DNA of 64,000 bases. It comes from Buxus sempervirens. Taxonomy: Eukaryota; Streptophyta; Magnoliopsida; Buxales; Buxaceae. Position numbers and translations under genes: made by a program. Of this stretch, positions 3,863-47,180 are shown piece after piece (position 1 is the first letter of the stretch; each line of letters begins with the position of its first letter). The stretch covers positions 33,722,858 to 33,786,857 of the forward strand of contig OX387190.1 in NCBI GenBank assembly GCA_947561395.2, in the 5' to 3' direction. The notes beneath the pieces were generated by a model. That model saw only the letters and a list, made by a program, of their open reading frames with translations, did not search any database and was not told where the DNA came from.

Positions 3863-6800
3863 TCAATTGATGGGGCATCCGGCAGAGGTTACCCCCTTAG
3901 CCGTGGGACAGGCTGCAAGATCACAGTGTTCGCCTTGGGTGCCCCACCAGTTCAAGCTCTTCTCTTCTAAACCCACAGCGAAGTACAGCAGCACCACCAT
4001 GAAAGCCACTCCAGCATCAAGAGCCGCTGACAGAACATAGTTGTACCTCTGCCACCATTGCTTTCGGTGCCGGAAAACAAAGAAGTTGAAGATGGTTCCC
4101 ACTATGATCCAAGAGTTATAGTTCACTGTTGTTGCCGGCGGCATAAAAGCAGTTGCACCCAGAAGCACCGGGAGGTTAATCAGTGGGATCCATGATTGCT
4201 TGGGGAAGGCCTTGTGCAGAAGCCAGACTATAACTGGACCCAGAATACCTGCAAGGAAGAACAAATTAATGGCTCTGTAGTTCCCAAGAGTGCCAAAGAT
4301 CCTCATGGGTCCAACCAGACCCCAGATGACGGACGCATCGAAGAAGACACGGTCACCAGGGCACGTCCACGGACTGTTCGGTGGAAGGAGCTCGTCGTTG
4401 CATATGTTGTCGATCGACGTCAACTGCCACCATGCCACATTGAGGTTTATGGTTCCATTTATCAACGTTCCGATAAACTGGAATGCAACAACATTCATTC
4501 AAGTAAATAGAAGGGGGACAAATTGATGTAAGGAAGAATCTAAAATCAACCTGAATTCATTACAGATGCCTCATAAAACGAGAAGAAGAATTGTGAAATT
4601 TGCACCTGAACTAAGAACATGGATCTGGGAGGGATCTTCATGTAATGGCCTAGCTTGAAATCACCAAGAAAAGAGATGGCTTGAGCCATGCTGATATACC
4701 CATATGTTTTGAAGCAGACATTTGCAATTGGATATCCCGGCATTATAACACCCATGATGTACTCTGTTATGATGTTTAACCCCGGCGTCTGGACAAAACA
4801 AATTTCAGAATATCAGTCCCGGTTTTATGGCAGCATTTCCATTGTGCAGGAGCAAAGGGTATACGTCATTCTGCAAACTGAGAAAAACAACTACATATAT
4901 GTGAGACAGGAGAGAGGTGAGGAGAAGTAAGTTTTCGCTAGAATTACCTGATTAGTTGTGGCAGTTATGATGCTGATTGGAAGGGTGAACATGAAAGCTA
5001 TGGCAGCAGCAAATATAAGTCCCCAGTAAGGCAATTGCACCTGTTCCTTCATGAAGATGCAGAGCAAAAGAGACACAATTAATGATACACCAAGCAGGAT
5101 GTAGAACCACCAGGAAGGTATGTCCTTGTATTTCCTCATCAACCTTGTGTGAATATCCGGTTTGCCGGTGTAAGAAGCACGATACCGATCATAGATCTCT
5201 CTGCAACCAAATACAAAACATGAGCAGTAATACCAAAATGAATTTACAGGTAATTGAAATAAAATTTTGATTCAGATCATGACAATTTCATTGACATAAG
5301 AAAGGGGACAAAGGGCATACCTTCCATAGAAAAGGGCCACATGAGTGACGGTGGCTGCAATGGTGGCGAAGCCAAAGCCATAGGTGAATGCAAAAAAGAT
5401 GCTGAGATTGATTCTTCCTTGCTTATCATACTGTGCATAATCGATCTGGAAATTTTTATCGACGATGGCCGATATGTTATAAGTCTGACCGGAGGCCGTG
5501 AAGAGGTGCGAAGAGAAGATGGGGAAGGTAGTAGCATTATAGGCGTTGAATCCCCAGTAGGCTATGGGGATGGCAATGTAGATGATCAATACATAGCCGA
5601 CAAAGATGTTGGCGATGGCAAAGAAAGGGGTGACGAGGGGGCTGGAGAGGAAGGATGCCACAACGGTCCAGTCCAGAGTTAAAGCCCCAAGTCCCAGGCC
5701 TTTCATGCCTGATCCAATCTGCTGGGCCGTGACGGATTTGGAGAAAGCCCAACAGATCCATGAGATGGTTGAGAGGGTAGTAAATAAGTACCCTGGGAGT
5801 ACATGCCAGGAGAAGCTGCAAACCATTGCAATGACGAAGAACTTCGCCCTTGACATGCGTCGCTCATTATCTTTCTCATGCAACGCGCTGCACGTTTTAG
5901 AAGTAGAAAATCAGCTGATAGCATGATCCAAAATATTGAGTCAGCTCAACATGGACATAGCTTTTTTGAATTGGCTGTAGCGACGAAGATAAGGTGTGCC
6001 CCATAATCATACAGAAGGACCTCATTTCCCTTCAATTGGAATGACAGAGACAGAGAGGCAGTAGGAGAGTGGACAATCTCCACCATCCACCACCGCTGGC
6101 AACCACTACCGGCTAACCAAACGGGCAGATTCGTACAGGACAGAAAAGGAAGGCAAAACATTTATATACAAACAATAAGAATGTTGAGGGCTACATACAA
6201 AAGGTTGAGAGACAAATTGACGTACCGAAATAAAGAGACCTGAACAAGAGTACTGGGCCACCACATGTGAGCTGGCTCCACTACGTACTTCCTTAAAAGC
6301 CCGGCCCAGCCATATCCCAATACCTGCCCCACATGCGCACATTAGCGTAAGCCATAGCCAAACTACACCTTGGAAACACAGATGGATAGGATAGTATAAG
6401 CAAACGGGTTGCCAGAATCGCAGAAACCACCTTGTAAATATCGCAGGAACACTAAAGTGGCTTGGGGGAATTGGTTTTTAGTGATATTTTTTAAACATAA
6501 TTCAGATTCAATCAGCCAAATCTTGATAATTGATTGTTAGTGATACTTTTTGATAATAAATGAGAACCCATGTCAACTTGATGTTCATTTAGTGTTTCTT
6601 TCGAAAATGCCACAAAAGATTTTGAAAACCATTTCTCTCGGCCAAATCTCGAAAGTGAGGTTTTGTAAGTTTTTGAGGGTATTTTTGGAAGAAATTCTAA
6701 ATAATAATAAAATGACATTAATTCTCAATTATTTTAAAAAGTATTATTAAAATCAAATTATCAAGATTTAGGTGACTAAATCTAAATTATTTTTAAAAAA

Positions 6801-7656
6801 TTATCATTGAAAACTAATTTTCCTAAGAGGCAAAGACACCACCGGAAAGAAACCATACCCCAAAGACAATAATTAACCAATTCACTTCCTATGGTGGCTT
6901 TATCTGTATTATTTAAGTGAAACTTCTACAGGATGCAAACACGTGTCCTTTGGATGCAAACACGCAATTAACAGTTTTCAACCACATGATACGTGTTTGC
7001 ATCCTGTGTAAGTTTCACTTAAGGACCATAGATAAAACCACCACAGGAAGTGACACCGCAGTAAAAACCAATGATGCTTGTAATGAGAGAGAGAGAGATA
7101 AAGTAGATTAAACTAAAAAACCAAATGAGATTGCAATAGATTTAACCTGGGTTGTAATGATAAGAATCCAACTGGCCAAGAAGGAGATCTTCCTGCCATA
7201 GAAGGCCTTGATTATAGTAACTATGTTTACGGCGTAAGGTGATCCGCTTCCGAAAGCGGCTCCGGCGTTGGCAAACATGGTGATGAGTACGTGTTCCTTC
7301 ATGTTGAAGGGACCCGGATTTAAAGACAACTCCAGCAATCCGACGCGATACTTGGTAGTGGGGAGTACCTTGGCCATAAACCGGCCGATGGGAAGCGTAG
7401 CGACCTGAACAGTGATCTGGGTAACAATGAGAGGCTCCGTTCTGTAGGCGAAAAACTGGTTGATGAAGGACAGCAACCCACACGAAAGAAGACCCAGAAA
7501 CCACATACGAAAGGTCCATACAGGGATTGAAGGGTCGTCGGTGTTGGTCATCGTCAACCGAACTTGTTCAATCGGAGACAATTCGTCCTCGTCAATCTCC
7601 TCCTCCTCTGCTACTTTCACGGAATTCGTTCCCATCTGCACTTCCATAGTTTCCAT
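3863..7656 (-). CDS. Oligopeptide transporter (OPT family, PT clade), copy 1, intact
   Basis: The gene has six exons: 7147-7656, 6226-6323, 5321-5887, 4948-5200, 4606-4788 and 3863-4477. All introns are GT-AG and the exons sum to 2,226 bases (741 residues). The product should be a multi-spanning, proton-coupled membrane transporter for small peptides, glutathione conjugates or metal complexes; the family is known for this, but the substrate cannot be read here. Seen directly: an acidic N-terminus, the [10 protein letters not shown] motif near residue 113, the GYGWAG exon, and the MPGYP...KIPPR motif near residue 527, which together define the PT clade rather than YSL. Many hydrophobic helices follow. 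The start is the first ATG of exon 1 and aligns with those of copies 2 and 3. Intron 1 holds a MITE and a long hairpin. The last exon ends shortly after a CDLAACP segment. Confidence 0.93.
6464..6824. mobile_element. AT-rich MITE in intron 1 of OPT copy 1
   Basis: The ends are near inverted repeats of the form GGGAATTGGTTTTTAGTG and the reverse of AACTAATTTTCC. Related elements lie at 20307-20584, 8299-8654, 37177-37531 and 37554-37714. The interior is AT-rich without coding capacity. A clean target duplication is not visible, so the superfamily is unassigned. Confidence 0.7.
6883..7053. mobile_element. Foldback (long inverted repeat) element in OPT copy 1 intron 1
   Basis: Two arms of about 63 bases are imperfect inverted repeats, from CACTTCCTATGGTGG on the left to CCACCACAGGAAGTG on the right, with a spacer of about 45 bases. 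The 13-base word GGATGCAAACACG occurs in the left arm, again in the spacer, and inverted in the right arm. Introns 1 of copies 2 and 4 lack it. It looks like a small foldback MITE; a hairpin RNA source is possible. Confidence 0.75.
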
Positions 7657-7759
7657 TTCGAGAGAACCGAAGGGGGGACGCGCAGAGAGACACAGAGAGA
7701 ATGATATTTCTAGATATGAAACGAAAATAATTTAAGGTTCAAACCTTCTTAATGAGCCG

Positions 7760-7766
7760 TTTTATA
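7760..7766 (-). promoter_or_regulatory. TATA box of OPT copy 1
   Basis: On the minus strand this reads TATAAAA within CTATAAAACGG, about 104 bases upstream of the start codon. It is conserved at the same distance before copy 2. The intervening leader is CT-rich (TCTCTCTG runs), typical of plant 5' leaders. Confidence 0.65.
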
Positions 7767-7773
7767 GGTTAAG

Positions 7774-9326
7774 AGGAAGGGGGTCTCTTTCCTTCTTCGA
7801 ATGGTTAGTTTGTCGATTCTTATGGTTTTATTTCATTGTCGAGATAAAATTATTAGTGGAATTACCACAATATCCGTTAATCGACAAAAGTGTCGCTGTG
7901 CGTAACCAGAGTTTACGTGTCTTGTTGATTTTGTTTTTAATTATTTAGGACTTGGTAGTAACTTTTTTGAGAGATAAAAGTCAGTAAAATTAAAGTAAAT
8001 TTTATGAGATCCATAAATGGATCCAACATCTTGAGTATTCCATTTATATTAACGGTTTGATTACGTTAAAGCAGTTGAATGCTGGAAAAAGGGAATCAGC
8101 GGGGAATCAATGAAAAACCGACCTCTACTTGCTTTCTCTCGGTCTCTGGTGTACAGTACCCACACACAGCTGTCGTTAGTGGACTTTACTCGATCAAGTT
8201 GAGCAGAAATCCTCAAAAAACACCGTCGGCTTTCACAGAAAACCCGCTTTTCAATAAATTCACGCGGCCTTTTACGAGGAACGTGTTTATCGGAATATGG
8301 GAAATTAGTTTTTAGTGCAACTTTTTCAAAATAATTCATATTCAGTCGGTTAATTCTTGAAAATTTAAAATTAGTGATACTTTTTTAACATAATTAAGAA
8401 TCAATATCATTTTACTATTTATAAAAATTTTCTTCCCATATGCCCTCAAAAGACTTTAAAAACCTTTCAATCATTTAGGTACAAACGAGATTTACAAGTC
8501 TTTTTGAGTGCACTGCCGGAAAAAAATTCTCGCTATTAGTAAAATAATACTGATTTTTAATTATGTTAAAAAATATCAATAATTCTAAATTTTAAGAATT
8601 GGCCGACTGAATCTGAATTATTTGAAAAAATTGTCACTAAAAACCAATTTTCCCATATATAAATATATATAGATGTTTCTCACTCCGACAGTTACCAATA
8701 ATTTTCCTGTGGACCTCTGTAGCTCTGTTTAATGTGGGTTGGCAATGAAATAAGATATATTACCTAACGGAATTTGTGATCCTCGTTTTGGTCAAGTGTG
8801 GAAGCCTTTATTGAGTTAGGTGATTTCCACCACCTATATAACTCATGAATTAAGAATCCTCGGAGCCATAATTTTTAATTAACATGGATCAATCATTTTC
8901 AAATCTTTCACAAAATTCTCAACTAATATTATGAGCTAAGCAGACAGATTTTTTTGGGGCACGGAGTTTGATATTGATAGAGAATGAGTACCTTATGGGT
9001 GGCAAGAGTTAGGTTTGAAGGTTGTGCTGAAAGTTATATACCGTCTGTACTAACACTAGATAGCTACCTTCCTCGATCGTCTATCAGCCCAGGTAGAGTT
9101 GGGATCTCAGTCATCCTTGTTTGTTTTGATGGAATAATTTGATTAAAGACTAGATACTCTCCATTTTTTTTAAATGTTTCAGAAAGCATTTCATAATTGG
9201 TTGAAAGGTTCCTCTCCAATGGAGGATATACAATAATTTATGGGTGATAAAAGGTATTGACATCTTATTTTGATTTATTAAATTACTTGCGGATGTGTTA
9301 GCGGAAATCACGAACGAGATGATTAA
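7774..9326. repeat. 5' flank of OPT copy 1, shared with copies 2 and 3
   Basis: Segments here match 21350-22330 (copy 2 flank) and in part 37105-37900 (copy 3 flank), for example the ATTACGTTAAAGCA word near 8060 and the GTGGAAGC segment near 8800. A MITE at 8299-8654 is present here but absent from copy 2. No gene is visible. Confidence 0.65.
8299..8654. mobile_element. AT-rich MITE, GGGAAAATTGG family
   Basis: The left end GGGAAATTAGTTTTTAGTG pairs with the right end AAAACCAATTTTCCC. It is the same family as the elements in OPT intron 1. The copy 2 flank reads through this position without it. Both flanks carry ATAT, but the target duplication is not decisive. Confidence 0.7.
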
Positions 9327-9876
9327 CCTATGTTTGGAACCCTGGATTTGGAGAGAAAAGAAAAGAAAATACTAAAATTTTCTTTTCTCTTGTTTGGTTC
9401 AAATGAAAGAAAATGAGATTTTTGATCCAAATTTTCTTTCAAAAAATGTAAGAATTTTAAAAGAAAAAAAAATTCTCCATCACTTATCATTATTCACACC
9501 ATCTACCCACCTTACTAGTAGCACCATCCACCACCACCACCCACCATCGCCAGCCACCATTGCAAACCATCACCATCACTACCACTACCATTTGCCACCA
9601 TCAATTAACTAGCACCCAGCACCACCACCGCCCACCATCATCGTCACCACCATCACTATCACCCCACCAACCCTATCAACACCTGCCAACTCTCACTCAC
9701 CCACCAACCACCCCAACCCACATCTTATTAAAATATATTTTTCTCTTCTTCTCATTTCTCATCTCATCTAAACATTGGAAAAGAAAATTAGTATTTTTCT
9801 TTTCTTTTCTCTTCTTTTCTTTTCCTTTTTAGCTTTCTTTTCTTTTCTCCCAAAATCCAAGGCTCCAAACACAGCA
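9327..9876. mobile_element. Tourist-like (PIF/Harbinger) MITE with TAA target duplication
   Basis: The left end CCTATGTTTGGAACCC pairs with the right end TCCAAACACAGCA, with TAA at 9324-9326 and 9877-9879. The copy 2 flank has the empty site GATTAAAAGAAAGGAG near 22323. The interior is rich in ACC/CCA and CT runs (9520-9700). It is related to the longer element at 35095-36364. Confidence 0.85.
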
Positions 9877-9879
9877 TAA

Positions 9880-11242
9880 AAAAAAGGAGAAATAAGCAAG
9901 CAAAATAATCTAATGTAGATAAATATTATTTATGCATTAGAAGCTTCCAAAGAACAAAACAATTGCATAGTTTTCTCCTAATAAGCAATAGAACCGTAAC
10001 TTACACAAAAAAACCCTTAAGTCAAGTAATTTGAATCTCTCTCTTACCTTATACTTTCCGCCCATAGAGAAGGCCTACAAGTAGTAGATAGAGTGAGATA
10101 CATGACACAACACAATAAGGTACACTATTGTACATAGACAAATAACAATTGAATATGAGTTATTCTTTGAAATATAAACGATTTAAAAGATATTAGGTAA
10201 TAAATATTCTTTGAAAAGAAAATGTCCGAGCAATAAGCTCTTGCAAACACCAAAATGTCACTCTCAACTGCACAGTGCAAGCAAGTATATCAATGAACAT
10301 ACTGCATTCTCCCATCAGGATCAAACATTAGTAAATGAAACTTTAATCCCCCTAATGTTGACAGCATGAAGTAGGGTTCAAAACGTCTTTTTAGCTGCAG
10401 CATAATCAAGTTTCACTCACCGTTATTGACTACTAAACCAACCAAGTAATTGACCAGATCTATAATGTTTTGACATTTTCTCCTAATGCCGCAACAGGTC
10501 ACAATCTTTAATTATAATAAATATATAAAACAGGTTACAATTTGGCGTGGCACTTTAATTTCCATAGAATATAATCTATATAATATTTTAAATCCTTCGA
10601 CGTCCTCGTTACTTATCTGATTTTCTTTGTGCATGGTATATACCAAATTGCATACTACAGCATAAAATTTCTTCCACGGAGATTGGAACTTTGTTGACTT
10701 ATTTACTCTATTATTGTCTCTATTATGAATGTTTCGATGTTCCGTTTTCCTAATTAGATGTTACCGCTGAGTATTTGTCCACCGTGACTTGATTCTGACG
10801 TCCTTGTATATATATACTAAGAAGATAGTATCAAAACCGTTTTTAAAGGAATGAGGGACTGTGCAGCCTCTATCTACAATGTTATTTGCAGCATGTATAG
10901 GATGCTGTTCACTTATTATTCATCCATTTTTTTAGGTTTTATTTTTTTGTGTATGACCCACATTCAATGGCACTAATTCAAAGCTGTAAATAAAAGTGTA
11001 GATAGGGGTTGTACAATCCGCCTTCCGAGTGTTAAACGGCACAAAAGATGGAGGATTATTGTTTTTAAAACAAAGGCAGTGTTCTGTATGAGTTCTACAA
11101 AACTAGCACTTATTTTGTCGTAAAGCCGGGTGATTATTAACTAGCGCTTATTTTGCCGCACATACGAAGAAAGAGGTAGATGAGGAGAAACCGTTTTAAC
11201 TGATTATTAAGTTTTCAAAAAAGTAATTCAGTTTTGCCAATT
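9880..11242. repeat. Distal 5' flank of OPT copy 1, duplicated in part
   Basis: Parts match the copy 2 flank (22330-22820) and the copy 3 flank (10290-10436 corresponds to 37915-38051). The copy 3 version is interrupted exactly at GACTACTAA by a PIF-like element. No exon is recognised. Confidence 0.6.
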
Positions 11243-13190
11243 TTAACTTTTTATTAACGAATCTTGATGTTGACCAAAACTTGTAATCTTTGATCTAACA
11301 CAATTTCACCCATTTGTTGTGGGTTTTTATTTTGTAAGGTACGGACCCATTCAAGGCCATTGGCCTTTAATTACATCCTAGACTCTAAAACAACCCTTTG
11401 ATTTTAACTCTCAAAGTATATCAAGAAATATTTGGTTTAATTTGTGTTTTTGTTATTGTGGCTGAACCCAATGTTCGGGCTGCCTACGTACTCAAGTATT
11501 TGGGATCAAGCCATATTGTAGTTCATATGAGATTTAGGATTTAAATTTGGTTTGGATTATGAGATTCTGGTTTAGTTTTGGTTTGATTCAAACTATAGAA
11601 ACAATGTTTGGACCATGTTTGAAATAGTTTAAAAGCATGCAAAGCTTCATTGGGTTTGGCTTAAATGCCATGAATTGCATGTGTTCGGGCCAATTTGGGT
11701 CAAACTTGGAGCAATTTGGTTAAATATAGAGGGGCTTGGTTCAACAAGGGGGACTTAAGTTTAATTCGGGAAAGGATTGATCCAAACAAGGACACTTTGA
11801 ACCACTTTCAATGAAGAAAAAGGGTCACTTGAATTTTTTTTTTATCACCGTTTAGGTTGGATTTGGTTTTCAGAAACATTCAGGAATTTCCAGGGATTTT
11901 TCTAGATTTTTGCGGGATCAAGTTGGATTGAAATGAGACAAAAAAGGTTGATTTGAAGATTTTTGGGTAAATTGGGTCCGCGGTTTGGGTTGGACCTGTG
12001 CCAACGGGCATGTGTGCGGGCCGCATATGGACTTGCTTGGCCCGCGCGCAAGTCTAAGGCCCATGCGGGCCTAATTTCAGGGCCCAGCACCCAATTTTTT
12101 TTTACTTTTTTTTTATCGGATCTCCAGGTTGAGCATGGGATGCAGGCGTGCGGGTACACCTAGGCGCACTGGGCGTCCGAGCACGCGCAGCCCATTAGTG
12201 TTGGGCTTGCGCGGTGCGCGCGGCCCTTGGCCCTTTTTTTTTTTTTTTTGCAAGTGAGTCGGATACTGGGTTGGAGCGCGAGCGTGTGGGTCAGACCTAG
12301 GCGCGCTGGGCTTTGCATGCGCGTGACCCATTAGCGTTGGGCTCATGCATGCGCACAACCCATAGAGCCTAATGCACATTTTTTTCTTTTGAGAACGGGC
12401 CGAGATGTTGGGTTAGACATAGGGACACACGGGTACGCCTAGACGCATTGGACCAGTGCCTGTGCACGGCCCAAATGTGCTAGGCTGGCGCATACCCATT
12501 GCCCAGAACGTCCTCTATCGTCCCTGTTGGCCTATTTGCTCCGGAAAACCGCCTGTAGCGATCATATTTCCACCGAAAATCACTGTATTCACCTAAAAAT
12601 GTTGCTGAGCACTACCATGGTGCCTCAGGCGCTCCCAAGCGGATGAACACGCTGGGAATTTGCGCCTGAGCACTACATAAGTGTCTCGGATACACTTCAA
12701 TCAGTAAGGGTTGAACAATCTGGATTCTTCTTTTTCTCCATCTTGCATCTTCCATTATTTTTTTTCTTGTCTTGTCATTTTCACATCTGGATCTGCAAAT
12801 AAAGATCAGATGTATCTTCCAATCCTTATCTCGTTCTCTTTGCCCCGTTTCTTTTTTGTCTTCTAGAGCCTTGATGTTAGTATCTAGAGAGAATTCAAAG
12901 AATAGATTAAAGCATATCTTTCCTCTTTTTCCTTGAATCCTTTATTTCCTAAAATCTCTCTGATTTGTTTGTCTTCTATTTTCCCCGATCTTCTAACCCC
13001 CTTTTTCTCCAATATCCTCCTTTTTATAGAGCATTGGACATGGGGTAGTTATGAAACTACCCGTTCAAAGAGGTTATAACCCGAATAAACCCACGTTAAA
13101 GCTCTTCTCATCATCATTTTTTTTAATTTTAATTATCACCTTTTTTTTTAATTGAAAATGAGGGGATGCCTTGATGAAGTCCCTCTTTTA
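11243..13190. other. Insertion specific to unit 1, with GC-rich internal repeats
   Basis: The copy 2 flank passes from the equivalent of 11242 to that of 13190 with only about 100 unrelated bases, so most of this stretch is an extra segment in unit 1. Between 12130 and 12520 a unit of about 130 bases is repeated three times in diverged form, each with CCTAGGCGC-like and GTTGGGCT-like words. Composition suggests a retrotransposon LTR, but no ends, primer-binding site or target duplication could be fixed. Confidence 0.45.
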
Positions 13191-14064
13191 AATAAATGCA
13201 TTCAATTATTTTGGGGGATAAAAGTGAATAGAACAGGACATTTTAGGTAGCGTAGAATGGAAACTAGTTACTAAGATACATATGTGAAAACAACCAATTG
13301 GGAGATACAAGTAAAAATAAGTAATAGTGAGGGGCATTCTTGGATAATCTCTAAGATTCTTTCCTTCATCATCAAGTGATTAGGACATGAAATGTAAGTT
13401 GCAGAATGGTACATACACATAGTGTTACATGAGTCACATAGCGTTAAAGGAAGACTTCCTTGGATGTACCAAAATAAGTAGACTTATTTTAGATTTTTAT
13501 TTTCTAAATTTTAAAATGAATATATTGCAATGGGTTCATATTGAGCTTAGTTTGTCTGCTTATAATATATGGCATCTTTCTTGTCACCATGCAAAGCTAA
13601 AGAACCTCGATACATTTGAATTAAAGCCAATTACACTCGCGTTCATGTTGGTCAGCATAATATTCTAACCTTGATTGTAACAGCTCCATTTTGGCGCGGG
13701 ACCGCATTTCTCCTGACTCGAATTTTATTCGAACTATTGCTAAGGGCATCTTCGTAATTTTACCCTTGGCATGTATTCATGGATTGGGACCCACTTTCAA
13801 GACGACAGGGCACATTTCAGTTCATTGTCAAAAATAAGATTATGGGCACATTTCAAAGCACGAGTGTGGGACCGGTGGGTTGGTGTCTTCGTGGCGTACG
13901 TTAAGAACGTAAAAACCGAAGGTAATGTACATGGAACACTACACCAGCCCAATCATTCTCTGTTTGTTAGTTACTTGTTTCTGTTGCATGATACAAACAG
14001 TTGGCCAGCACTGCACTCTCATCTCATGCCTGCCTTAAAAAATGTTTATGAGTAGCTAGAGCTG
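13191..14064. repeat. Shared inter-unit spacer between OPT copies 1 and 2
   Basis: The left part (13191-13570) matches 22930-23350. The stretch near 13571-14050 matches 29220-29500 and 40576-40870. The uninterrupted GAGCTTAGTTTGTCTGCT at about 13543 is the empty site for the PIF-like element at 23354-29196. The reading frames here are not conserved between copies, so no gene is called. Confidence 0.6.
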
Positions 14065-14473
14065 AAAATATAACTTGGACGGCCCAAAGCCCCGCCCTAT
14101 CCAACCCAAACAAAAGCCTGAACCAAGCATTTAGTTGGACTGCCCAAAGCCCGCCTGATCCAAGCCCAACAACCGTGTTTATTCTAGCTGGTAAGGATTG
14201 GGATCTCACGGAAGGCAAAGGCAAAGACTTTTGTTGGCATCATGTGGAACTTCTCAAGGAAATCAGAAGCTTTTAAAATCCTCACCTGGCTTCTGCTGAC
14301 CCAAGGGAACTGTTTTATGTCTTAAATCCTCACCTTTCTTATGCTGTTTCAGGCTGCCCAATGAATTAACCCTAGCCAGATCCAAAATTCCTTTTGCTTG
14401 GGTTTTCCAATCTTGGCCCAACCCAAAAGTTCGCAAAGGCTAACACCACCAATGTGTTTACTTGGGCTGCCAC
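14065..14473. repeat. Duplicated noncoding block A, copy 2 (truncated)
   Basis: Closely similar to 1461-1698 plus 2231-2410, to 29510-29920 and to 40870-41300, and it lacks the hAT element seen at 1699. It stops abruptly at the start of a hAT element at 14474. The rest of the block (the TTGGATATTATCC part) is missing. Confidence 0.75.
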
Positions 14474-14893
14474 TAGAGGTGGCAATTGTGACCCGTGACC
14501 CACTAGGTCTTGGGGGGGTTTGGGTTGACTGTTTCAACCGGAGGCTTGGGTTTGGGTCATGAATTCTTAACCCAATTATAAATAGATTGGATTAAGATTT
14601 GACCCCTTAACCCGAAATGACCCGATCACAACCCTATTTTTTTTTTAGGCAATATTAGTTTGGAACTTTATACTAACAATAGTTGTGGCTATTCAACCTT
14701 TTCTCTTTTAACATAAATAATGACAAAGGATAAAAGTGAAGAAATATTTTCTAGATGTAAATATTTCAAATTTCTTAGCTTCTACTAATTTTAATTGAGG
14801 CATTGATGACAAGTAAAGTCTTTTAAGGCTTTATTATTATGTTTTAGTTCTTTTCTTCATTTTATTTTAGTTCTATCTTAATGATGTCATTAA
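14474..14893. mobile_element. Truncated hAT-type element
   Basis: It begins TAGAGGTGGCAATTGTGACCC and continues with sequence closely related to 24321-24740, including the ATAATGACAAAGGATAAA word. The right terminus is absent. At about 14893 it joins directly to OPT 3' flank sequence equivalent to about 3540, which points to a deletion spanning the element's right half and more than 1 kb of flank. Confidence 0.75.
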
Positions 14894-15355
14894 TGTTTTG
14901 AATACTTTTTTTCTATAAATTTTGATATAGTAGTATAAAAAAATATTTATGTATTCCAACTTCGCGTGCATGCTAGCAAAAATTAAGAATGCCCCAAACG
15001 GTTAACCCTCCAAATTAACTTGCTTTATGTGGAGGATTTGCTCCTATAGCATTATAATGGTGAGAATACAGCTGCGTTTGGTAACGCTTTTCGGAAGTAT
15101 TTTTTTGTTTTTGAAAGCAAAAAATTGCTTTTAAAAGCAAAATTACCGTTTGGTAATGCACATGAGAAAGCAATTTACTAAAAGCAAAGAAGCAATTTTA
15201 TTGCTTTTCATCGGAAGCAACAAAACGTTGCTTTTCAATTTTTTTACAAAATTGCTTTATTGCTTTCAAAACCCCTGGATACCCTATTGCTTTATTCCTA
15301 TGTTAAAGATGATGCCTCCATACTCACTTAAAAAGCAATAGCGTATTGTTATTGA

Positions 15356-15733
15356 TAGAGCCAGCAAAATGCCACTCGACCCGACGGGTCAACCCGATTA
15401 TAAACGGATTGGGTTGACCTATTTATTAATTGGGTTGGGTGCGGGTTGGGGAAACGGGTCAAACCGATTATGACCCGCCAACCCGACGGGTAACGCAATT
15501 AAAAAAAAATGGCAAAAGTATCATGTTTTGACTCGATTAACCCCAAAACTCGACCCGAACCCGGTACAACCCGATCCAATTAACCCCCTAACCCTATTTT
15601 AATAATATTTTTTGCAAAATAAAAAATAAAAATAATAATAAACGGGTTGGCGGGTTGGGTTTGGGTTGGGGGGTTTTCCAACCCGCCTTAATTTAGTCCA
15701 ACCCGATTATGACCCGACCCGTTGCCAGCTCTA
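15356..15733. mobile_element. hAT-type MITE with near-perfect 8-bp TSD
   Basis: The ends are TAGAGCCAGCAAAATG and CGTTGCCAGCTCTA. The flanks are GTTATTGA (15348-15355) and GTTATTGC (15734-15741), one mismatch in eight. The interior is rich in AACCCGA and GGGTTGG words and holds no gene. It interrupts the PIF-like element just before the transposase relic. Confidence 0.8.
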
Positions 15734-15939
15734 GTTATTGCTTGTTGTGCATTACATAATTTTATCAGAATGCAAGCACATGAAGATAATTTATTCACAG
15801 AATTTGAAGATGAGGAAATGGTGGTCGAAGATGAGCTAACAGGTTCAAGTTCAGAACAACCCATAGAGAATGATGTGACGGCTAGATCTCGACGAGAGAT
15901 GTCAGAATTAAGAGACTCAATTGCACGTAGACTAGCTAG

Positions 15940-16838: not shown

Positions 16839-17182
16839 CTAGCTAGTGCATATGGATTAGCACAATGGTGATATTAGATACTTGTTTACTTATTTGAATG
16901 TAATTAAATGACTATTTTATGAATCTTTTATAATATTGGACTTATATTTTTGAGTATATTTCTAAGTACAATACATAAATTGTGTACAATACTTTTATGG
17001 AAGCAAAAAACAATTTTTATGTTACTGCAATTACCAAACATGCTTTTTTGCTTCTTAAAAGCAAAGCAAAAGTTTACCAAACGCATTTGCTTTAAGAAAA
17101 GATCTTTCGAAAAGCATAAAATTGCTTTTTTGCTTTCTTGCTTTTAGAAGCAAAAAAGCAAAAGCGTTACCAAATGTAGCCT

Positions 17183-17400
17183 ACATCTTCAATTTTTTTT
17201 GGTAAGCAGAATACATCTTCAATTACAAATGTAACAGAAAGATATCTACAATTAATTTTCTCCCACACAATTCCCCCAAACGGTTAACCCTCCTAATTAA
17301 CTTGTGTAACTCAACACCAAACTTGCTAATTACATTCAGCAACGATGCCACAACAAACTAAGACATACGTGTAAGGTAATATGTATCGACAGCGAATCGA
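17183..17400. repeat. Proximal 3' flank of OPT copy 2
   Basis: Matches 3660-3862, 31720-31865 and 42900-43083. It holds the uninterrupted GATATCTACAATT, an empty site for the hAT MITE at 31535-31704. Confidence 0.7.
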
Positions 17401-26760: not shown

Positions 26761-26768
26761 GTGGGGAG

Positions 26769-34800: not shown

Positions 34801-37032
34801 ACATTCATATACAAACAATAATAATGTTGAAGGCTACAAAAGGTTGGGAGACAAATTGACGTACCGAAATAAAGAGACCTGAACCAGAGTACTAGGCCAC
34901 CACATGTGCGCTGGTTCCACTACGTACTTCCTCAAAAGCCCGGCCCAGCCATATCCCAATACCTGTCCAACAAGCGCACGTTAGCATAAGCCATAGACAA
35001 ACTACACCTTGGAAACACAGATGGATCGGATAGTACAAGCAAACGGGTTGCCAGAAAAGCAGAAACCACATGATAAATATTGTAGAAATACTAAGGCTCT
35101 GTTTGGAACCCTAGATTTGGGTAGAAAAGAAAAGAAAATGCTAAAATTTTCTTTTCTCTTGTTTGGTTTCAATGAAGGAAAATGAGATTTTCTCTCTTTC
35201 TTTCTCTCTAATGTAAAAAAAAAATTCTCTAAAAAAGTAGGAATTTTGAAAGAAAAGAAAATTTACCATCACTTGTACTATTCACACCACCCACCTAGGG
35301 CTGGCAATGGGTCGGGAATATATCTGAATTCAATCCGAATCCGATTCGAAATTGATGAATCCGATCCGAAATCTGAGATCCGTTGTTCGAATACGGATCT
35401 GAAATCTAAGATCCAAAAAAATTCAAATTCAAATACGAATATACATATATTCGATCCGAATAGGATCCGACCGAAATCATATATATCCTATGTATAAACC
35501 CAGAGCAGACATTGGTTAGACTGTAGACCATTTATAAACTACGGTTGAACTATCATAACTAAAACCAAAAACCTTTAGATAAAGATTTGCCCTAAACTCT
35601 CTCCTCTTTGTCACTGCCACCCTCCGGCGACTGGTACCTGCAAACCGACTTAAAGAACCAATTCCAAAACCCCTTATTTTGAAACCTTTTTTGCTCTGAA
35701 ATTCCATTGTCCAGAACAGGCCGGTCATTCTAAGTTTCGGGGTACGATTTTATTTGTCAGTCACTCAATATCCACTGTTGCATGGTGCTTCAAATTTGAA
35801 GTTCAAACCCATTTCTCATTTAAATCCCTCTCTGAGTAGGGTTGGAAATGAGTGGGATATATATCCAAAATCGATCCGAATCCGATTCGAAACTGAAATT
35901 GGCGAATTTGAATATAGGATTTAGATCCGTGATTCGAATACGGATCTGAAATCTAAGATCCGATAAAATTCGGATTCAAATACGAATATACACATATTCG
36001 ATCCGTATTCGACCGATTGCCACCCCTACACCCACCCAACCCACCACTAGCACAATCCACCACCACCACAACCTACTATCCACCATCGCCTACTGCCACC
36101 GCTAACCACCACCATCGCCCGCTACCACCCACCATCGCTCGCCACCATCGTCAACCACCACCAGCCACCGCTACCACCTCTATCATCGCAGTCGCCGTCG
36201 CTGCCACCCCACCAATCCTACCAGTATCTGTCCACTCTCACTCGCCCACCATCCAACCACTGGAAAAGAAAATAAAATTAGTATTTTTATTTTATTTTCT
36301 CTTCTTTTTTTTTCATTTTAGCTTTATTTTCTTTTCTCCCCAAATCTAGGATCCAAACACAGCCTAAAGAAGCTCTAACACCTTCTTTTTTTTGTAACAA
36401 GAAGCTCAAACACCTCCGGAAAGAAACCATACGCACAGACATTAATAAGAGAGAGAAAAAGAGAGAGAGAGAGAGAGAATAGATTAAACTAAAAATCCAA
36501 ATGAGATTGCAATAGATTTAACCTGGGTTGTAATGATAAGAATCCAACTGGCCAAGAAGGAGATCTTCCTGCCATAGAAGGCCTTGATTATAGTAACTAT
36601 GTTTACGGCGTAAGGTGATCCGCTTCCGAAAGCGGCTCCGGCGTTGGCAAACATGGTGATGAGTACGTGTTCCTTCATGTTGAAGGGACCCGGATTTAAA
36701 GACAACTCCAGCGATCCGACGCGGTACTTGGTAGTGGGGAGTACCTTGGCCATAAACTGGCCGATGGGAAGCGTAGCGACTTGAACGGTGATCTGGGTAA
36801 CGACGAGAGGCTCCTTTCTGTAGGCGAAAAACTGGTTGATGAAGGACAGCAATCCACACGAAAGAAGACCTAGAAACCACATACGAAAGGTCCATACAGG
36901 GATTGAAGGGTCGTCGGTGTTGGTCACCGTCAACCGAACTTGTTCAATCGGAGACAATTCGTCCTCGTCAATCTCCTCCTCCTCTGCTACTTTCACGGAA
37001 TTCGTTCCCATCTCCACTTCCATTGTTCCCAT
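31866..37032 (-). CDS. Oligopeptide transporter (OPT family, PT clade), copy 3, intact coding
   Basis: The gene has six exons: 36523-37032, 34865-34962, 33310-33879, 32956-33208, 32609-32791 and 31866-32480. They sum to 2,229 bases and 742 residues. The extra codon is a threonine in exon 3, giving LTTYGFGF where the sisters have LTYGFGF. All junctions are GT-AG, NPG lies near residue 113 and KIPPR near 528. Intron 1 is about 1,560 bases, roughly twice that of copy 1, because a Tourist-like element holding a hAT element has landed in it. The leader and ATG are conserved, but about 215 bases including the TATA box are deleted just upstream. The protein looks functional, while expression may be altered or lost. 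Substrate not inferable. Confidence 0.92.
35095..36364. mobile_element. Tourist-like (PIF/Harbinger) element in OPT copy 3 intron 1
   Basis: The ends are GGCTCTGTTTGGAACCC and ATCCAAACACAGCC, with TAA at 35092-35094 and 36365-36367. It is related to 9327-9876, sharing CT-rich and CCACCA-rich interior tracts. A hAT element sits inside. Confidence 0.88.
35296..36028. mobile_element. Composite hAT-type element, CACCCACC target duplication
   Basis: The ends are TAGGGCTGGCAATGG and ATTGCCACCCCTA. The perfect 8-bp duplication CACCCACC lies at 35288-35295 and 36029-36036. It is closely related to 26030-26760 and likewise has an internal second left-end sequence near 35837. Confidence 0.92.
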
Positions 37033-37176
37033 GTCGAGAGAACCAGAGGGGGGACGCGCAGAGGGACGGAGAGAATGATATTTCTAGATATGAAACGAAA
37101 ATAATAGTCTTGATTACGTTAAAGCAATTGAATGCTGGAAGAAGAGAATCAGCGGGGAATCAATGAAAAACCGAAA

Positions 37177-37531
37177 GGGTAAATTGGTTTTTAGTGATAT
37201 TTTTCAACATAATTCAGATTCAGTCGGCCACTTTTAGAAAATTGAGAATTAATAATACTTTTTTTTTAAATAATTAGAAATCAGTATCATTTTACTGTTA
37301 GTAAAGAATTCCTTCGGAAAATGGCTTTAAAACCTTTTTACTCATTTACATATAAGTGAGGTTTGCAAGTCTTTTTGAAGGTATTTTTGAAAGAAATTCT
37401 TCATAAATAGTAAAATGACACTGACTTCCAATTCCAATTATTTAAAAAAAGTATTACTAATTCTTAATTTTCAAGAATTGACCAACTGAATCCGAATTAT
37501 TTTGAAAAGTATCATTAAAAACCAATTTTCC
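37177..37531. mobile_element. AT-rich MITE, GGGAAAATTGG family
   Basis: The ends are GGGTAAATTGGTTTTTAGTG and AAAAACCAATTTTCC. Interior as in the other members; no coding capacity. Confidence 0.7.
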
Positions 37532-37553
37532 AATATATACATAGATGTTGTTT

Positions 37554-37714
37554 GGGAAAATTGGTGTGGGGTATTTTTGAAAGAAATTCTTTATGAATAA
37601 TAAAATGATGTTAATTTCAATTATTTAAAACATATCACTAATTCTTAATTGTTAAGAATTGGATGACTAAATCTAAATTATTTTAAAAAATTGACACTAA
37701 AACCCAATTTTCCC
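37554..37714. mobile_element. AT-rich MITE, GGGAAAATTGG family, internally deleted
   Basis: The ends are GGGAAAATTGGTGTG and AAAACCCAATTTTCCC. It is about half the length of the other members and lies only 22 bases from the previous one. Confidence 0.65.
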
Positions 37715-38151
37715 TAGATTTTTCTCACTCATGATAGTTATCAATAATTTTCCTGTGGCTGTAGCTCTCTGTTAGCGGAATTTGTGATCCTCATTTTTGT
37801 CAAGTGTGGATATATTACCTAACGGAATTTCCCTAGAATCCTCGCAACCATAATTTTTACTTAACATGGATTAATCATTTTCAAATCTTTCACAAATTTC
37901 TCAACTAATATTATCAACGAACATACTGCCTTCTCCCATCGGGATCAAATATTGTTAAATGAAACTTTAATCCCCCTAATGTTGATAGCATGAAGTAGAG
38001 TTAAAAATGTCTTTTTAGCTGCAGCATAATCAAGTTTCACTCACCGTTATTGACTACTAAGGTACCGTTTGGTAACGCTTTTCAAAAGTGCTTTTTTGCT
38101 TTTGAAAACAAAAAATTGCTTTCAAAAGCAAAAGTGTTGTTTGGTTATGCA

Positions 38152-39898: not shown

Positions 39899-40569
39899 TG
39901 GGAGTTGACCTTATATGCTTCTAGAAGGGAAAGTGAAATGAGGGAGTGCTGGTTCATCATTTTAATGGATTACTAATTAGTGGAAAGCATAGATTAGGTT
40001 TATCCAAGACCACGCCATCAATCCCCCTTCGTCGTGTGTATGTGTCTGAAAAGGTTTAGGGCGCCTTTGAAGAATATGCTACACATCGACCTCCGATGAT
40101 TCCCCCAAAGGGATCTCAATCTCATGGGTGATAAATTTCAACAACTTTTGGTTCAGTGGTAGGGTCCTTTCGAATCTTGAACTTTCAACTCTTGACTTCC
40201 AATATGCTACATGTTCCTCCTTCCATTGAGAATTCAAAGTACCCAGCTGTACTAATTGGCTCTTGAATCAAATTAATTATTGACAGTCTTTTTGAAGTTT
40301 CGCAAATGTAATCTCCATTAAGTGATAAAATAAAGTACTAACCAAGCTTAAATCATAAGCAGGTTACAGAGTAGAGAGCATTTCCCTCTCACAAAAGAAC
40401 CAGGTACGTATAAGCCAAACAAGATGAGACAAATGGACATCAAGTGGCCATCACATCGGATTCAGAATCTATTAACTTGCAAACGCTAACGCCCATACCA
40501 GTCCTGTAACGTCTTCTTCACTCTCAATTAGAGGCAATTGACCTTCCTTCACAAAAATCCTCAATGATA
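39899..40569. other. Unassigned spacer
   Basis: No exon, terminal repeat or match to the other OPT units is recognised here. The words GAGTTGGGAGTTGACC near 39890 and TCGAATCTTGAACTTTCAACTCTTGAC near 40170 hint at further repeat debris. Confidence 0.35.
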
Positions 40570-41700
40570 ATATCTAGCATCTTTCTTGTCGCCATCCAAA
40601 GCTAAAGAACCTCGATACATTTGAATAAAAGCCAATTACACTCGCGTTCAAGACGGAAGGGCACATTTCAGTTCATTGTCAAAATAAAGATTATGGGCAC
40701 ATTTCAAGCACGAGTGTGGGACCTGTGGGTTGGTGTCTTCGTGAAACCGAAGGCAATTTACATAGAACACTACACCCAATCATTCTCTGTTTGTTAGTTA
40801 CTTGTTATGCGGCATAATACAAACAGTTGGCCTGCACCGCAGTCTCACGCCTGCCTTAAAAAATGCTACGAGTGGCTAGAGCAGAAAATATAACTTGGAC
40901 GGCCCAGAGCCCCACCCGATCCAACCCAAACAAAAGCCTGAACTAAGCATTTAGTTGGACTGCCCAAAGCCTGCCTGATCCAACCCAAACAACTGTATTA
41001 TTCTAGCCGGTAAGGATTGGGATCTCAGGGAAGGCAGAGGCAAAGACTTTTGTTGGCATCATGTGGAACTTCTCAAGGAAATCAGAAGCTTTCAAAATCC
41101 TCACCTGGCTTCTGCTGACCCAAGGGAACTGTTTTATGTCTTAAATCCTCACCTTTCTTATGCTGTTTCAGGCTGCCCAATGCATTAACCCAAGCCAGAT
41201 CCAAAGTTCCTCTTGCTTGGGTTTTCCAATCTTGGGCCCAACCCAAAAGTTCGCAAAGGCTAACACCACCAACGTGTTTACCTGGGCTGCCACTGGATGA
41301 GAATACAGACTGATGAATCACTCTTGATCAGTTATTGGATATTATCCTCCGCAGAACAAGACTATGTAGACAGGAATTATCTTGAGCCTTGTGGGCGACA
41401 GATGATACAGACAACTGGAGATACACATATTAATAGCGGCATGGTGTTTTTATTGTCCAGGTACATTTTGCTTCTCGTAAAATTTTTTAAGGGTGTTTTA
41501 CTTATGTTATATTATAAACTATAAATTGATAAGATATATTGGTATATAGGTTGTTTTACTTATGTTATATTATAAATTATAAATTTATAAGATACATTGG
41601 TATATAGGCCCACCGTAGAGGGAAAAACTATTAACCTTCTATTGTCATTTTGTCTTATCTAATTTCATTTTTCACTTTCTAAAAGAGACCCTTTAACCAT
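40570..41700. repeat. Shared spacer and duplicated noncoding block A, copy 4
   Basis: The part 40576-40869 matches 13571-14064 and 29220-29509, and 40870-41700 matches block A of unit 3 almost throughout. It is uninterrupted at the sites where other units carry the hAT elements (near 41117 and 41293). Confidence 0.7.
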
Positions 41701-43083
41701 TCCTTATGGCTTACATGTCCTAAAATTTTAAACTACATGCATGCACCCGCTAGTATACTTAACGGCTCAAAAATGTGCACGGAAGATTCTGGCCCCACAT
41801 TCTTCTCATTTACTTTCCCACTATGCTGAATTTTGAGTTAAAATAGGATTAAGAAAAAGAAAAAAAATTTCGTACAAAATTGCATATCAAAAAGGTAAAT
41901 GGTAATGAAGTTGGCTTCCTATTAGAACTCAACAAATAGCGATACATAGACGGTAAAGAAAAGAAATTAGATATCATTCTGATAGACGAATTGGTCTAGA
42001 TATCGATCTAGAAGATGAGAAATTTCAAGATCGAACACAATAACTTCTTGACTTCAATAAAAATCCTTCATTAAAAAAACGAACCCCCTAAAAGCATTTA
42101 TATAGGTGTTACAAAAAAAGCCTTAAAAATAGGAAACATAACTTATTAAAAATAGCAAAATTCGAGTTAGATTCAAATTCCTAAAATATAGCTTAAGATA
42201 AGAATATCCTCAAAAGACTGACTCAAAACAAACTTTCCTTGATCCTAAACGAAAGCAATCAATTCTTTCCTAAAATAGTAAATTCACTAATTTGAAGGTT
42301 TAAATGAAGGAATTTGGCCAAAAAATGGCGTACATCACTCCAAAGCATTGAGTTTTGATATTGACGCTTTTTCCAATCAACCGACCAATTTTCAGCCCAT
42401 TTTGACAATGTTGAGCAAAATGATCAAAATGCCCCCGGTTTGGAAAACACTATTTGACTATCACTAAATCCTTAGAACTTGTCCTACGTCAAGTAGTTGT
42501 GCCATTCTTCACTTCAATTCCTTTCAAGATATACAATACTATAATATGTTAAGATTTAGATATAAATTAAAATATATATATATATATATTTCAAAAAGTT
42601 AAATTACATAAATTAAAAAAATTTATTTGCCCAGATTTTAGTTTGAATAACCTTTTTTAAAAGAATTTTGTAAATAAAATTGTTAGATTAAAATCAATTT
42701 TATAAATTAATATATGGTTTGGATTAAAAAATAATCCACAATGGTAGTAAACCAAAAACAAATGCATGTCATTAGTGTTTTGAATAATTTTTTTCCATAA
42801 ATTTTGATATAGGAGTGTAAAAAAATATATATGTATTCCAACTTCGTGTGCATGCTAGTAAAAATTAAGAATGCCAAGTTTAGTAGTTTTTTTTTCTCTC
42901 CCACAAATGTAACGGAAAGATATCTACAATTGATTTTTCTCCCACATGTACAATTCCCCCAAACGGTTAACGCTTCTAAATAACTTGTGCAATTCAACAC
43001 CAAATTTGCTAATTACATTCAGAAATGATGCCACAACAAACTAAGATATACGTGTAAGATAATATGTATCGACAGCGAATCGA
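41701..43083. repeat. Proximal 3' flank of OPT copy 4
   Basis: Nearly collinear with 30301-31865 apart from the missing hAT MITE. No gene is seen. Confidence 0.65.
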
Positions 43084-46000
43084 TCAATTGATAGGGCATC
43101 CGTCAGAGATTACCCCCTTAGCCGTGGGACAGGCTGCTAGATCACAGTGTTCGCCCTGGGTGCCCCACCAGTTCAAGCTCTTCTCTTCTAAACCACAGCG
43201 AAGTACAGCAGCACCGCCATGAAAGCAACTCCAGCATCAAGAGCTGCTGACAGAATATAGTTGTACCTCTGCCACCATTGCTTTCGGTACCGGAAAACAA
43301 AGAAGTTGAAGATGGTTCCCACTATGATCCAAGAGTTATAGTTCACTGTTGTTGCCGGTGGCATAACAGCAGTTGCACCCAGAAGCACCGGGAGATTAAT
43401 CAGTGGGATCCATGATTGCTTGGGGAAGGCCTTGTGCAGAAGCCAGACTATAACTGGACCCAGAATACCTGCAAGGAAGAACCAATTAATGGCTCTGTAG
43501 TTCCCAAGTGTGCCAAAGATCCTCCAGGGTCCAACCAGACCCCAGATGACGGACACATCGAAGAAGACACGGTCACCAGGGCACGTCCACGGACTGTTGG
43601 GCGGAAGAAGCTCGTCGTTGCATATGTTGTCGATCGACGTCAACAGCCACCATGCCACATTGAGGTTTATGGTTCCATTTATCAACGTTCCGATAAACTG
43701 GAATGCAACAACATTCATACAAGTTAATAAAACAAATATAAAAAAATAATAAATGGGAGGGATCTTCATAAAAAGACAAGAAGAATTGTATTAATTTGTA
43801 CCTGAACTAAGAACATGGATCTGGGAGGGATCTTCATGTAATGGCCTAGCTTGAAATCACCAAGAAAAGAGACGGCTTGAGCCATGCTGATATACCCATA
43901 AGTTTTGAAGCAGACATTTGCAATTGGATATCCCGGCATTATAACACCCATGATGTACTCCGTTATGATGTTTAACCCTGGCATCTGGACAAAACAAATT
44001 TCAGAATATCAGTCCTGGCATGACAGCATTTCCTTTGCGCAGGAGGAAAGGAAATACATCACTCTGCAAACTGAGATAAAGAATACATATTTGGGAGACA
44101 GGAGAGAGGTGAAGGAGAAGGAAGTTTTTCACTAGAATTACCTGATTTGTTGTGGCAGTTATGATGCTGATTGGAAGGGTGAACATGAAAGCCATCCCAG
44201 CAGCAAATATAAGTCCCCAATAAGGCATTTGCACCTGTTCCTTCATGAAGATGCAGAGCAAAAGAGACACAAGTAATGATACACCGAGCAGGATGTAGAA
44301 CCACTAGGAAGGTATGTCCTTGTATTTCCTCATCAACCTTGTGTGGATATCCGGCTTGCCGGTGGAAGAAGCACGGTACCGATCATAGTTCTCCCTGCAA
44401 CCAAATATAAAACATGAACAGTAAACCAAAATAAATTTGCAGGTAATTGAAATAAATTTTGGATTCAGATCAGGATAATTCATAAAGGGCATACCTTCCA
44501 TAGAAAAGGGCCACATGAGTGACAGTGGCCGCAATGGTGGCGAAGCCAAAGCCATAGGTGAGAGCAAAAAACATGCTGAGATTGATTCGTCCTTGCTTAT
44601 CATACTGTGCATAATCGATCTGGAAATTGTCATCGACGATGGCCGATATGTTATAAGTCTGACCGGAGGCCGTGAAGAGGTGCGAAGAGAAGATGGGGAA
44701 GGTAGTAGTATTATAGGCGTTGAATCCCCAGTAGGCTATGGGGATGACAATGTAGATGATCAATACATAGCCGACGAAGATGTTGGCGATGGCAAAGAAA
44801 GGGGTGACGAGGGGGCTGGAGAGGAAGGATGCCACAACGGTCCAGTCCAGAGTGAAAGCCCCAAGTCCCAGGCCTTGCATGCCTGATCCAAGCTGCTGGG
44901 CCGTGACGGATTTGGAGAAAGCCCAACATATCCATGAGATGCTTGAGAGGGTAGTAAATAAGTACCCTGGGACTACACACCAGCAGAAGCTGCAAACCAT
45001 TGCAATGACGAAGAACTTCGCCCTTGACATGCGTCGCTCATTTTCTTTCTCATGCAACGCGCTGCACGTTGTAAACTTAGAAAATCAGCTGATAGCATGA
45101 TCCAAAATTCATTTTTTTCTTTTTCACATACAAGAATATTCTAAAACTGTTTCATCTGGAGCCACTCAATGGTTCAGCATGAAACTTGCCGATGGATGGC
45201 ACTTTTCAATAATGGGGCCCACACCCCAAAATGCATCTGAGCCAGTGATTTCACTAAACCACCGGATTTTGATTCTAAAAGAAATGCTCACGAATATTCT
45301 ATCGTGAAGGTAGTGTTTTTAAACTTGCACTGCAAACATTATTTAAGATTTTAAATAACCACGTACGTAAATAAAAACATAAGAAGCATGTATCATGCAG
45401 ACGCTAATAAGGCACCGATCAAGCTTTTCCATAAAAGATCAGATATTAAAGGAAAGTGAAAAAGGCAGAAGAAACTGTGGTCGTGTTTCTCGCATGCCGC
45501 CGTTCTACAGCTAGTCATCGCTAGAGATGGACCCAGTTAGGTTAACCATAAGCTGCCAATTTGGCTTAACCCTATCTGTGCCAATCGGTCAAAACTTACA
45601 CGAGTTAAATCCTCTACATATGAGACCGTAGAAAGTGCTGCCTATAACTTTTTCCACCCGTGGATACGCGGACAACTGAAAACGGCTGTGGAAGAAATAG
45701 ACGCGGCTGACGAAATATGAAGAGCCTCTCAATCAAAGGCATGTGAGAAACCCCGAGCTGGAAAAGTCAAAAAGACTGGGAAGATCTTCCATACAGGGAC
45801 AGGAGAAGTTACATTATACTCCTCTTTCATTGTTCCGGTCGCAGTAATATAGAAAGGTATCTCTTCCTTCAAACTAGCGAAGATCTTGCCACTACACTAT
45901 CCAACTGATTATGACCGTCAGTCTCCGCTGAGAGCCGATCTCACCATCAATAATTTTGATCAAGTCAAGTGAGTAACTGTAGTAATCATGACCAAGAGGT

Positions 46001-47180
46001 GCAATTTTCACAGTTCCCCAAACTAACAATATCAACGGCCCCATAAAACTCGCTTATCGTTTGATTAACTCGACATTAAAAGAGAAAGATCCCTGCGGTC
46101 CTTTTGACTTTTAAATTTTCTTTCAGGAGTTGGTTGTCTTGATAAACTCGTTTTTCTTTGTATCTAGCCATTTGCCTTTGTACTTAAACTCACGTATGCG
46201 CCTTATTATAATATATCAGGCAACTGTCCTTCGTTGGTTAATATTTACTAACCCACATATGTTCGTTATAAGAATGTTGAAGGCTACAAAAGGTTGAGAG
46301 ACAAATTGACGTCCCGAAATAAAGAGACCTGAACCAGAGTACTGGGCCACCACATGTGCGCTGGCTCCACTACGTACTTCCTCAAAAGCCCGGACCAGCC
46401 ATATCCCAATACCTGTCCACAAGCGCACGTTAGCGTAAGCCATAGACAAACTACACCTTGGAAGCACACATAGATCGGATTGCCAGAACGGCAGAAACCA
46501 CATGCTAAATATCGTAGAAACACTAAAGAAGCTCAGAAACCACCGGAAAGAACCCATACGCAAAGACATTAATTAACACAGCAATAGAAACCAATAATGC
46601 TTGTAATAAGAAAGAGAGAGAGAGAGATTAAACTAAAAAAAAAACAAAAAACAAATGAGACTGCAATAGATTTAACCTCGGTTGTAATGATAAGAATCCA
46701 ACTGGCCAAGAAGGAGATCTTCCTGCCATAGAAGGCCTTGATTATAGAACTATGTTTACGGCATAAGCTGATCCGCTTCCTAATGTGGCTCCGGCGTTGG
46801 CAAACATGGTGATGAGTACGTGTTCCTTCATGTTGAACGGACCTGGATTTAAAGACAACTCCAGCGATCCGACACTTGGTAGTGGGGAGTACCTTGGCCA
46901 TAAACCGGCCGATGGGAAGCGTAGCGACCTGAACAGTGATCTGGGTAACGACGAGAGGCTCCGTTCTGTAGGCGAAAAACTGGTTGATGAAGGACAGCAA
47001 CCCACACGAAAGAAGACCCAGAAACCACATACGAAAGGTCCATACCGGGATTGAAGGGTCGTCGGTGTTGGTCACGGTCAACCGAACTTGTTCAATCGGA
47101 GACAATTCGTCCTCATCAATCTCCTCCTCTGCTACTTTCACGGAATTCGTTCCCATCTCCACTTCCATTATTGTTGCCAT
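43084..47180 (-). pseudogene. Oligopeptide transporter, copy 4, decayed
   Basis: All six exons are recognisable: 46677-47180, 46315-46412, 44495-45061, 44142-44394, 43802-43984 and 43084-43697. Four kinds of damage are seen. First, exon 1 has lost 5 bases at about 46873 and 1 base at about 46747, so some 42 codons containing NPGPFN are read out of frame before the frame recovers. Second, the donor after exon 2 is GG instead of GT (46313-46314). Third, a tryptophan codon in exon 4 is TAG (44304-44306). Fourth, one C is missing at about 43192 in exon 6, replacing the conserved C-terminal tail by an early stop. Exons 3 and 5 remain open. Intron 5 has been rearranged, and flank similarity to the other copies ends near 47277. 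A transcript is possible, a working transporter is not. Confidence 0.92.

Follow-up and report, generated by a model that had tools for sequence, protein, structure and literature searches.

Tandem PT-class OPT genes in Buxus sempervirens: a two-tier array with differing upstream regions

We analyzed a window of 64,000 nucleotides from Buxus sempervirens (C12:33722858-33786857; position 1 is its first letter, and negative positions lie left of it), which holds part of a tandem array of OPT genes. The array very likely arose by unequal crossing-over in two tiers and encodes predicted peptide symporters of the PT (peptide transporter) class. An old neighboring pair, one gene of U type and one of C type, would have been amplified locally on each side, giving three units of the first type and four of the second. 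Among the C units, C1 and C2 appear to have kept a promoter whose proximal part C3 and C4 lost.

Units of the array and their predicted function

The window was extended by 80 kb on its left and 40 kb on its right, and the resulting 184 kb were searched; the genome scanned comprised 677 Mb in 247 contigs. We found seven OPT units in one orientation over approximately 85 kb, three of the seven being intact. No eighth unit was seen in the 184 kb. An earlier note, made from the window's letters, had described a four-unit array. Its four C units are real, but the true count is seven, with U1–U3 located 3.6–37.7 kb left of the window start. C1–C4 follow one another head to tail on a single strand, as that note had stated; it is the minus strand, and their ATG codons are spaced 13,583, 15,793, and 10,148 bp apart in the order C1 to C4.

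Splice-site reading gave six-exon models for all four C copies. C1 and C2 have identical exon lengths (510/98/567/253/183/615), and C3 matches them save for exon 3 (570), which holds one extra codon and thus brings the protein to 742 residues. All five introns are GT-AG in each of C1–C3, and the spliced frames are open over 741, 741, and 742 aa. The three complete proteins that the note had read from the window, with matching exon lengths and one codon added in the third copy, were thereby confirmed. In a self-comparison, identity between copies was about 92–96% in blocks of 0.65–3 kb, far above chance.

3863..7656, minus strand: C1, intact OPT gene, 741 aa (exons 7147-7656, 6226-6323, 5321-5887, 4948-5200, 4606-4788, 3863-4477)
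17401..21239, minus strand: C2, intact OPT gene, 741 aa (exons 20730-21239, 20068-20165, 18843-19409, 18490-18742, 18144-18326, 17401-18015)
31866..37032, minus strand: C3, intact OPT coding sequence, 742 aa (exons 36523-37032, 34865-34962, 33310-33879, 32956-33208, 32609-32791, 31866-32480)
Exon 3 of C3, minus strand: extra codon, in the context FFALTTYGF
43084..47180, minus strand: C4, dead copy (exons 46677-47180, 46315-46412, 44495-45061, 44142-44394, 43802-43984, 43084-43697)

C4 carries five lesions, which agrees with the several independent lesions claimed for the fourth copy:

Between 46873..46874, minus strand: 5-bp deletion in exon 1 (frameshift)
46747..46748, minus strand: 1-bp deletion in exon 1, which together with the 5-bp deletion restores the frame after a scrambled stretch
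46313..46314, minus strand: exon 2 donor GG in place of GT
44304..44306, minus strand: Trp codon of exon 4 changed to TAG
43194..43195, minus strand: 1-bp deletion in exon 6, the frame ending at the stop 43188-43190

The U units were revealed by a genome scan with PF03169, which located their exons close to the left edge of the window, on the strand that also carries C1–C4. None of them is pristine:

-37726..-35079, minus strand: U1, dead; the 5' half is missing, with two frame jumps and a stop in the aligned part
-17791..-14154, minus strand: U2, one frameshift; exon 4 is one base shorter at its beginning than in U1 and U3
-7452..-3561, minus strand: U3, one frameshift; one added base, which alters the last residues only

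The loss of an end copy, as first proposed, is therefore half right: C4 is dead and is the rightmost unit, but the left end is not C1, as the three older damaged units continue there.

Membership in the OPT family was indicated by a PF03169 match in each of the three C1 exon open reading frames scanned, and the genome search listed exons of C1–C4 and U1–U3. C1 and C2, the two proteins scanned with TIGR00727 (small oligopeptide transporter), scored 609.0 and 616.6 bits against a curated cut-off of 438.7. The NPG and KIPPR motifs, named as PT-clade motifs in PMC9131082, both occur in C1, C2, C3, the C4 row, U2, and U3, while the 5'-truncated U1 has KIPPR only. By these matches and motifs, the C proteins are classed as PT OPTs. 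A structure search by sequence returned no PDB relative at E ≤ 0.001. The proteins most likely act in proton-coupled symport of small peptides and related molecules at the membrane. We presume them to be of OPT2/OPT4 type; if so, the copy number could affect folate and glutathione transport. In Arabidopsis, AtOPT2, AtOPT4, and AtOPT6 carry folates in yeast according to PMC12687453, and AtOPT4 carries tetra- and pentapeptides according to PMC9131082.

Divergence and exchange between the copies

Synonymous divergence (dS, Nei–Gojobori) was 0.067–0.109 across the six C pairs and 0.066–0.138 across the three U pairs, against 1.41–1.83, near saturation, in the twelve C–U pairs. The low and similar values within C1–C4 bear out the recent amplification of one transporter proposed earlier. 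Ancient copies, which would have spoken against it, were found between U and C and not within C1–C4. The maximum-likelihood tree placed C1–C4 in one clade (ultrafast bootstrap 100%), U1–U3 apart from the rest (100%), and U and C together apart from five other full-length PT-type paralogues (100%). The contrast of high C–U and low within-tier divergence argues for an ancient neighboring pair that was amplified locally on both sides. Together with the tree, it suggests that each of the two old neighbors underwent its own amplification, to a comparable depth.

The Ks table of PMC3188535 implies, by our arithmetic, rates of about 6.5e-9 (grape) and 1.5e-8 (Arabidopsis) per site and year. At these rates, which may not be those of the host, the C copies would be approximately 5–8 or 2–4 million years apart, respectively. 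The dN/dS ratio was 0.24–0.35 among the C copies and 0.08–0.13 between C and U. Judged by these ratios and the open frames, C1, C2, and C3 encode predicted full-length transporters under purifying selection.

The low dS could instead date the last exchanges rather than the duplications, if ongoing gene conversion kept the copies alike. We regard this as a serious alternative, although we lean somewhat against it. For its analysis, we used a masked four-copy alignment of 2593 columns, 2109 of them exonic. An unmasked whole-gene alignment showed 13–24% differences because unrelated insertions had been forced together; it was discarded, and its counts were not used. The exons of the masked alignment contain 15 sites that divide the copies 2:2, and these support three incompatible groupings (5, 6, and 4 sites); a further 128 changes are confined to a single copy. 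Introns and flanks differ more than exons. Sites of the same pattern are clustered, with 9 runs over 22 sites where 14.8 are expected (p = 0.006), but the run test is weak for the 15 exon sites taken alone (8 runs against 10.9 expected, p = 0.08). Long concordant runs were found for C1/C2 (p = 0.007), C1/C3 (p = 0.009), and C3/C4 (p = 0.014), but not for the other three pairs (p = 0.98, 0.37, and 0.31), and these p-values are uncorrected for six pairs. Moreover, the C4 frameshifts have not been overwritten. The conflicting and clustered sites indicate that some gene exchange between the copies is likely, though not proved.

As a check for further genes of the U and C groups, we listed 105 PF03169 matches (a lower bound, 71 of the 79 candidates having been scored) and compared 14 loci. 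The short fragments L032 and L033 are nearest to U3, and the remaining clearly matching loci lie closest to other paralogues. In this comparison, L001–L004 matched at ≤40 bits, and L005 and L007 gave no match; we take these six to be YSL-type. A dispersed sequence of 1.8 kb at L032 and L033 includes a reversed fragment of U-type OPT sequence, which covers exon 5 and intron 4 together with the end of exon 4 and portions of intron 3. This gene fragment seems to have been captured and multiplied by a mobile element. Of the three copies of the 1.8-kb sequence, at L032:2213-4008 (contig C4:53128712-53130507), at L033:1295-3075 (contig C22), and at contig C4:23522696-23524407, two are 96% and 92% identical to the remaining one. 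The genome also holds another tandem pair of PT-class OPT genes, L023 and L024 (contig C9:48270000-48287500), with a dS of 0.31 and open six-exon models for both.

Upstream regions and the loss of copies

The head-to-tail units, common flanks, and abutting junctions that characterize a tandem array formed by unequal crossing-over were all found. Units abut at 1454-1467 (U3/C1) and at 13551-13554 (C1/C2), and the remaining junctions are blurred by insertions. A 3' flank of about 2.4–2.7 kb is common to all four C units, with gaps or insertions in C1 and C2. The duplicated flanks reported on both sides hold to this extent, but the 5' flank is shared only by C1 and C2, and by C3 in pieces, whereas the homology of C4 ends at 47250.

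1454..3862, minus strand: C1 3' flank, cut at 1454; the U3 5' flank ends at 1467
13551..17400, minus strand: C2 3' flank with insertions; C1/C2 unit junction at its outer end
29197..31865, minus strand: C3 3' flank
40567..43083, minus strand: C4 3' flank
7657..13554, minus strand: C1 5' flank, collinear with that of C2 and lengthened by insertions; TATA-like box at -110
21240..23431, minus strand: C2 5' flank with a TATA-like box at -110
37033..38136, minus strand: C3 5' flank; lacks, at 37101-37105, about 200 bp that C2 has (21315-21514), and carries an inverted-repeat element farther out at 37177-37531
47181..47250, minus strand: shared C4 5' flank (BLAST); unrelated DNA beyond, and repeat DNA from 47462 outward

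The upstream DNA of C1 and C2 is collinear for kilobases, interrupted by insertions. C3 follows it to 37105 and then jumps, with the 5-bp repeat ATTAT at both break ends. The missing stretch holds a TATA-like hexamer, found at -110 in both C1 and C2 with matching surroundings. Other such hexamers within 600 bp upstream lie at -392 in C1 and -278 in C2; because AT-rich DNA often contains them by chance, we only infer a TATA box. In C4, a short CCTTAAATTAT piece can still be aligned slightly past 47250. Farther outward, 47462-48249 has another copy on contig C8, and 48249-48700 is a high-copy repeat with at least 42 matches (the best 40 of 317 candidates scored). C3 and C4 thus depart from C1 and C2 approximately 70–75 bp upstream of the ATG, and the regulatory divergence that the earlier note had suggested appears, at the structural level, in the DNA itself.

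Two repeats recur in these flanks. An inverted-repeat family resembling miniature inverted-repeat transposable elements lies at 6469-6819 (intron 1 of C1), 8295-8658 (upstream of C1), and 37177-37531 (upstream of C3). A piece of about 150 bp is present in the 3' flank of every C unit (2260-2402, 14327-14469, 29770-29913, and 41146-41289), and a fifth copy, 83–86% identical, lies outside the array at 56890-57040.

According to the proposed mechanism, C1 and C2 would retain a common promoter, the proximal part of which C3 would have lost by deletion, while in C4 only about 70 bp of the upstream homology would remain. Given these losses, a loss or change of expression would be a likely starting point for both the divergence of C3 and the death of C4. 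The array would then present several decay stages side by side: two copies with a common promoter, one intact copy without the proximal promoter, one dead copy, and an older damaged tier. The order of promoter and coding losses, which we infer, can therefore be tested by copy-specific RNA reads. Otherwise, the array reflects the ordinary birth and death of tandem genes.

A more specific version holds that copies were silenced at a single point and that their coding sequences decayed only afterwards. The promoters of C3 and C4 would both end 70–75 bp above the ATG through different events, a deletion at the 5-bp repeat in C3 and, in C4, the disappearance of upstream homology beside repeats. C3 would be in transit, with conversion keeping its frame clean. 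Having no ancestral core promoter, it would either be coming under a promoter derived from a mobile element or be heading to death. We hold this version possible but doubtful.

Selection for dosage, by which several copies were retained to supply more of one transporter, would account for the three open frames, the dN/dS values among the C copies, and the similarity of the proteins. However, two of the four C units are without the proximal promoter of C1 and C2, all three U units are damaged, and neutral birth and death gives the same pattern, and we consider dosage unlikely. An assembly artefact, in which uncollapsed haplotypes were placed in line, is highly improbable: the only gap in the 184 kb (200 N at -8414..-8215) adjoins U3, but the window is without any N, the longest exact match between two C units is 93–241 bp over the six pairs at the dS given above, and each unit has its own insertions, deletions, and promoter structure.

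Several observations weigh against the two-tier scheme with promoter loss and peptide transport. The supports within C1–C4 are only 48 and 53%, so the branching order is not fixed and successive crossovers cannot be traced. C3 has a TATA-like hexamer within 600 bp, solely at -507, and C4 has one at -159; loss of expression is thus unproved. C4 has 16 private replacement codons against 21 silent ones, compared with 37 against 46 in C1–C3 pooled (11/12 in C1, 11/12 in C2, and 15/22 in C3; Fisher p = 1.0). Its ratio resembles that of the intact copies; tested by this ratio, the idea of a long-dead C4 was unsupported in spite of the five lesions. At sites invariant in other paralogues, C1 has the private changes V36M and W609L, C2 none, C3 L388F, and C4 three, so an open frame is no proof of a working transporter. 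In particular, W609L suggests that C1 may be impaired despite its intact frame. The OPT2/OPT4-type placement is our assumption from resemblance to Arabidopsis sequences. For glutathione, the sources conflict, AtOPT4 being a carrier in PMC12687453 and not in PMC9131082.

Known OPT clusters and neighboring elements

Tandem OPT clusters have been published for poplar, grape, Arabidopsis, and rice (VvOPT1-VvOPT2-VvOPT8, AtOPT9-AtOPT8, OsOPT2-OsOPT3, and PtOPT8-PtOPT5; PMC3188535), as well as for ginseng (PMC6337337), peanut (PMC9131082), and Brassica juncea (PMC12609508), and the kind of array is therefore already known. In the available parts of these papers, the named clusters comprise two or three genes; no further search was aimed at larger ones. 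The clusters of PMC3188535 belong to the same family, tandem duplication is named there as an important factor in its growth, and the Ks of recent grape pairs (0.02–0.08) lies in the range of C1–C4 or below. The present array differs in having seven units, two age tiers, and lesions and promoter changes that can be assigned to individual units. OsOPT2, OsOPT3, and OsOPT4 of rice (PMC5520842) are likewise tandem PT-class genes under purifying selection, three in number, but at Ks 0.59–0.63 they are older than C1–C4. AtOPT2 and AtOPT4 are presumably the nearest Arabidopsis genes; their substrates are reported (PMC12687453), whereas those of the C proteins are only predicted. The array thus belongs to a known kind but is larger and has been dissected in more detail, and its interest lies mainly in how the promoters of C3 and C4 have changed.

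To the right of the array, a piece of a serine acetyltransferase gene at 55581-55979 (SATase_N, E 3.4e-8, 24 residues) adjoins a Copia insertion; inspection by eye did not find the remainder of the gene nearby. The Copia retrotransposon (50924-55717) has long terminal repeats that are identical save for one 11-bp indel, a 5-bp target repeat (GGCTC), and a long open frame that includes domains of integrase and reverse transcriptase. These features indicate a very young insertion.

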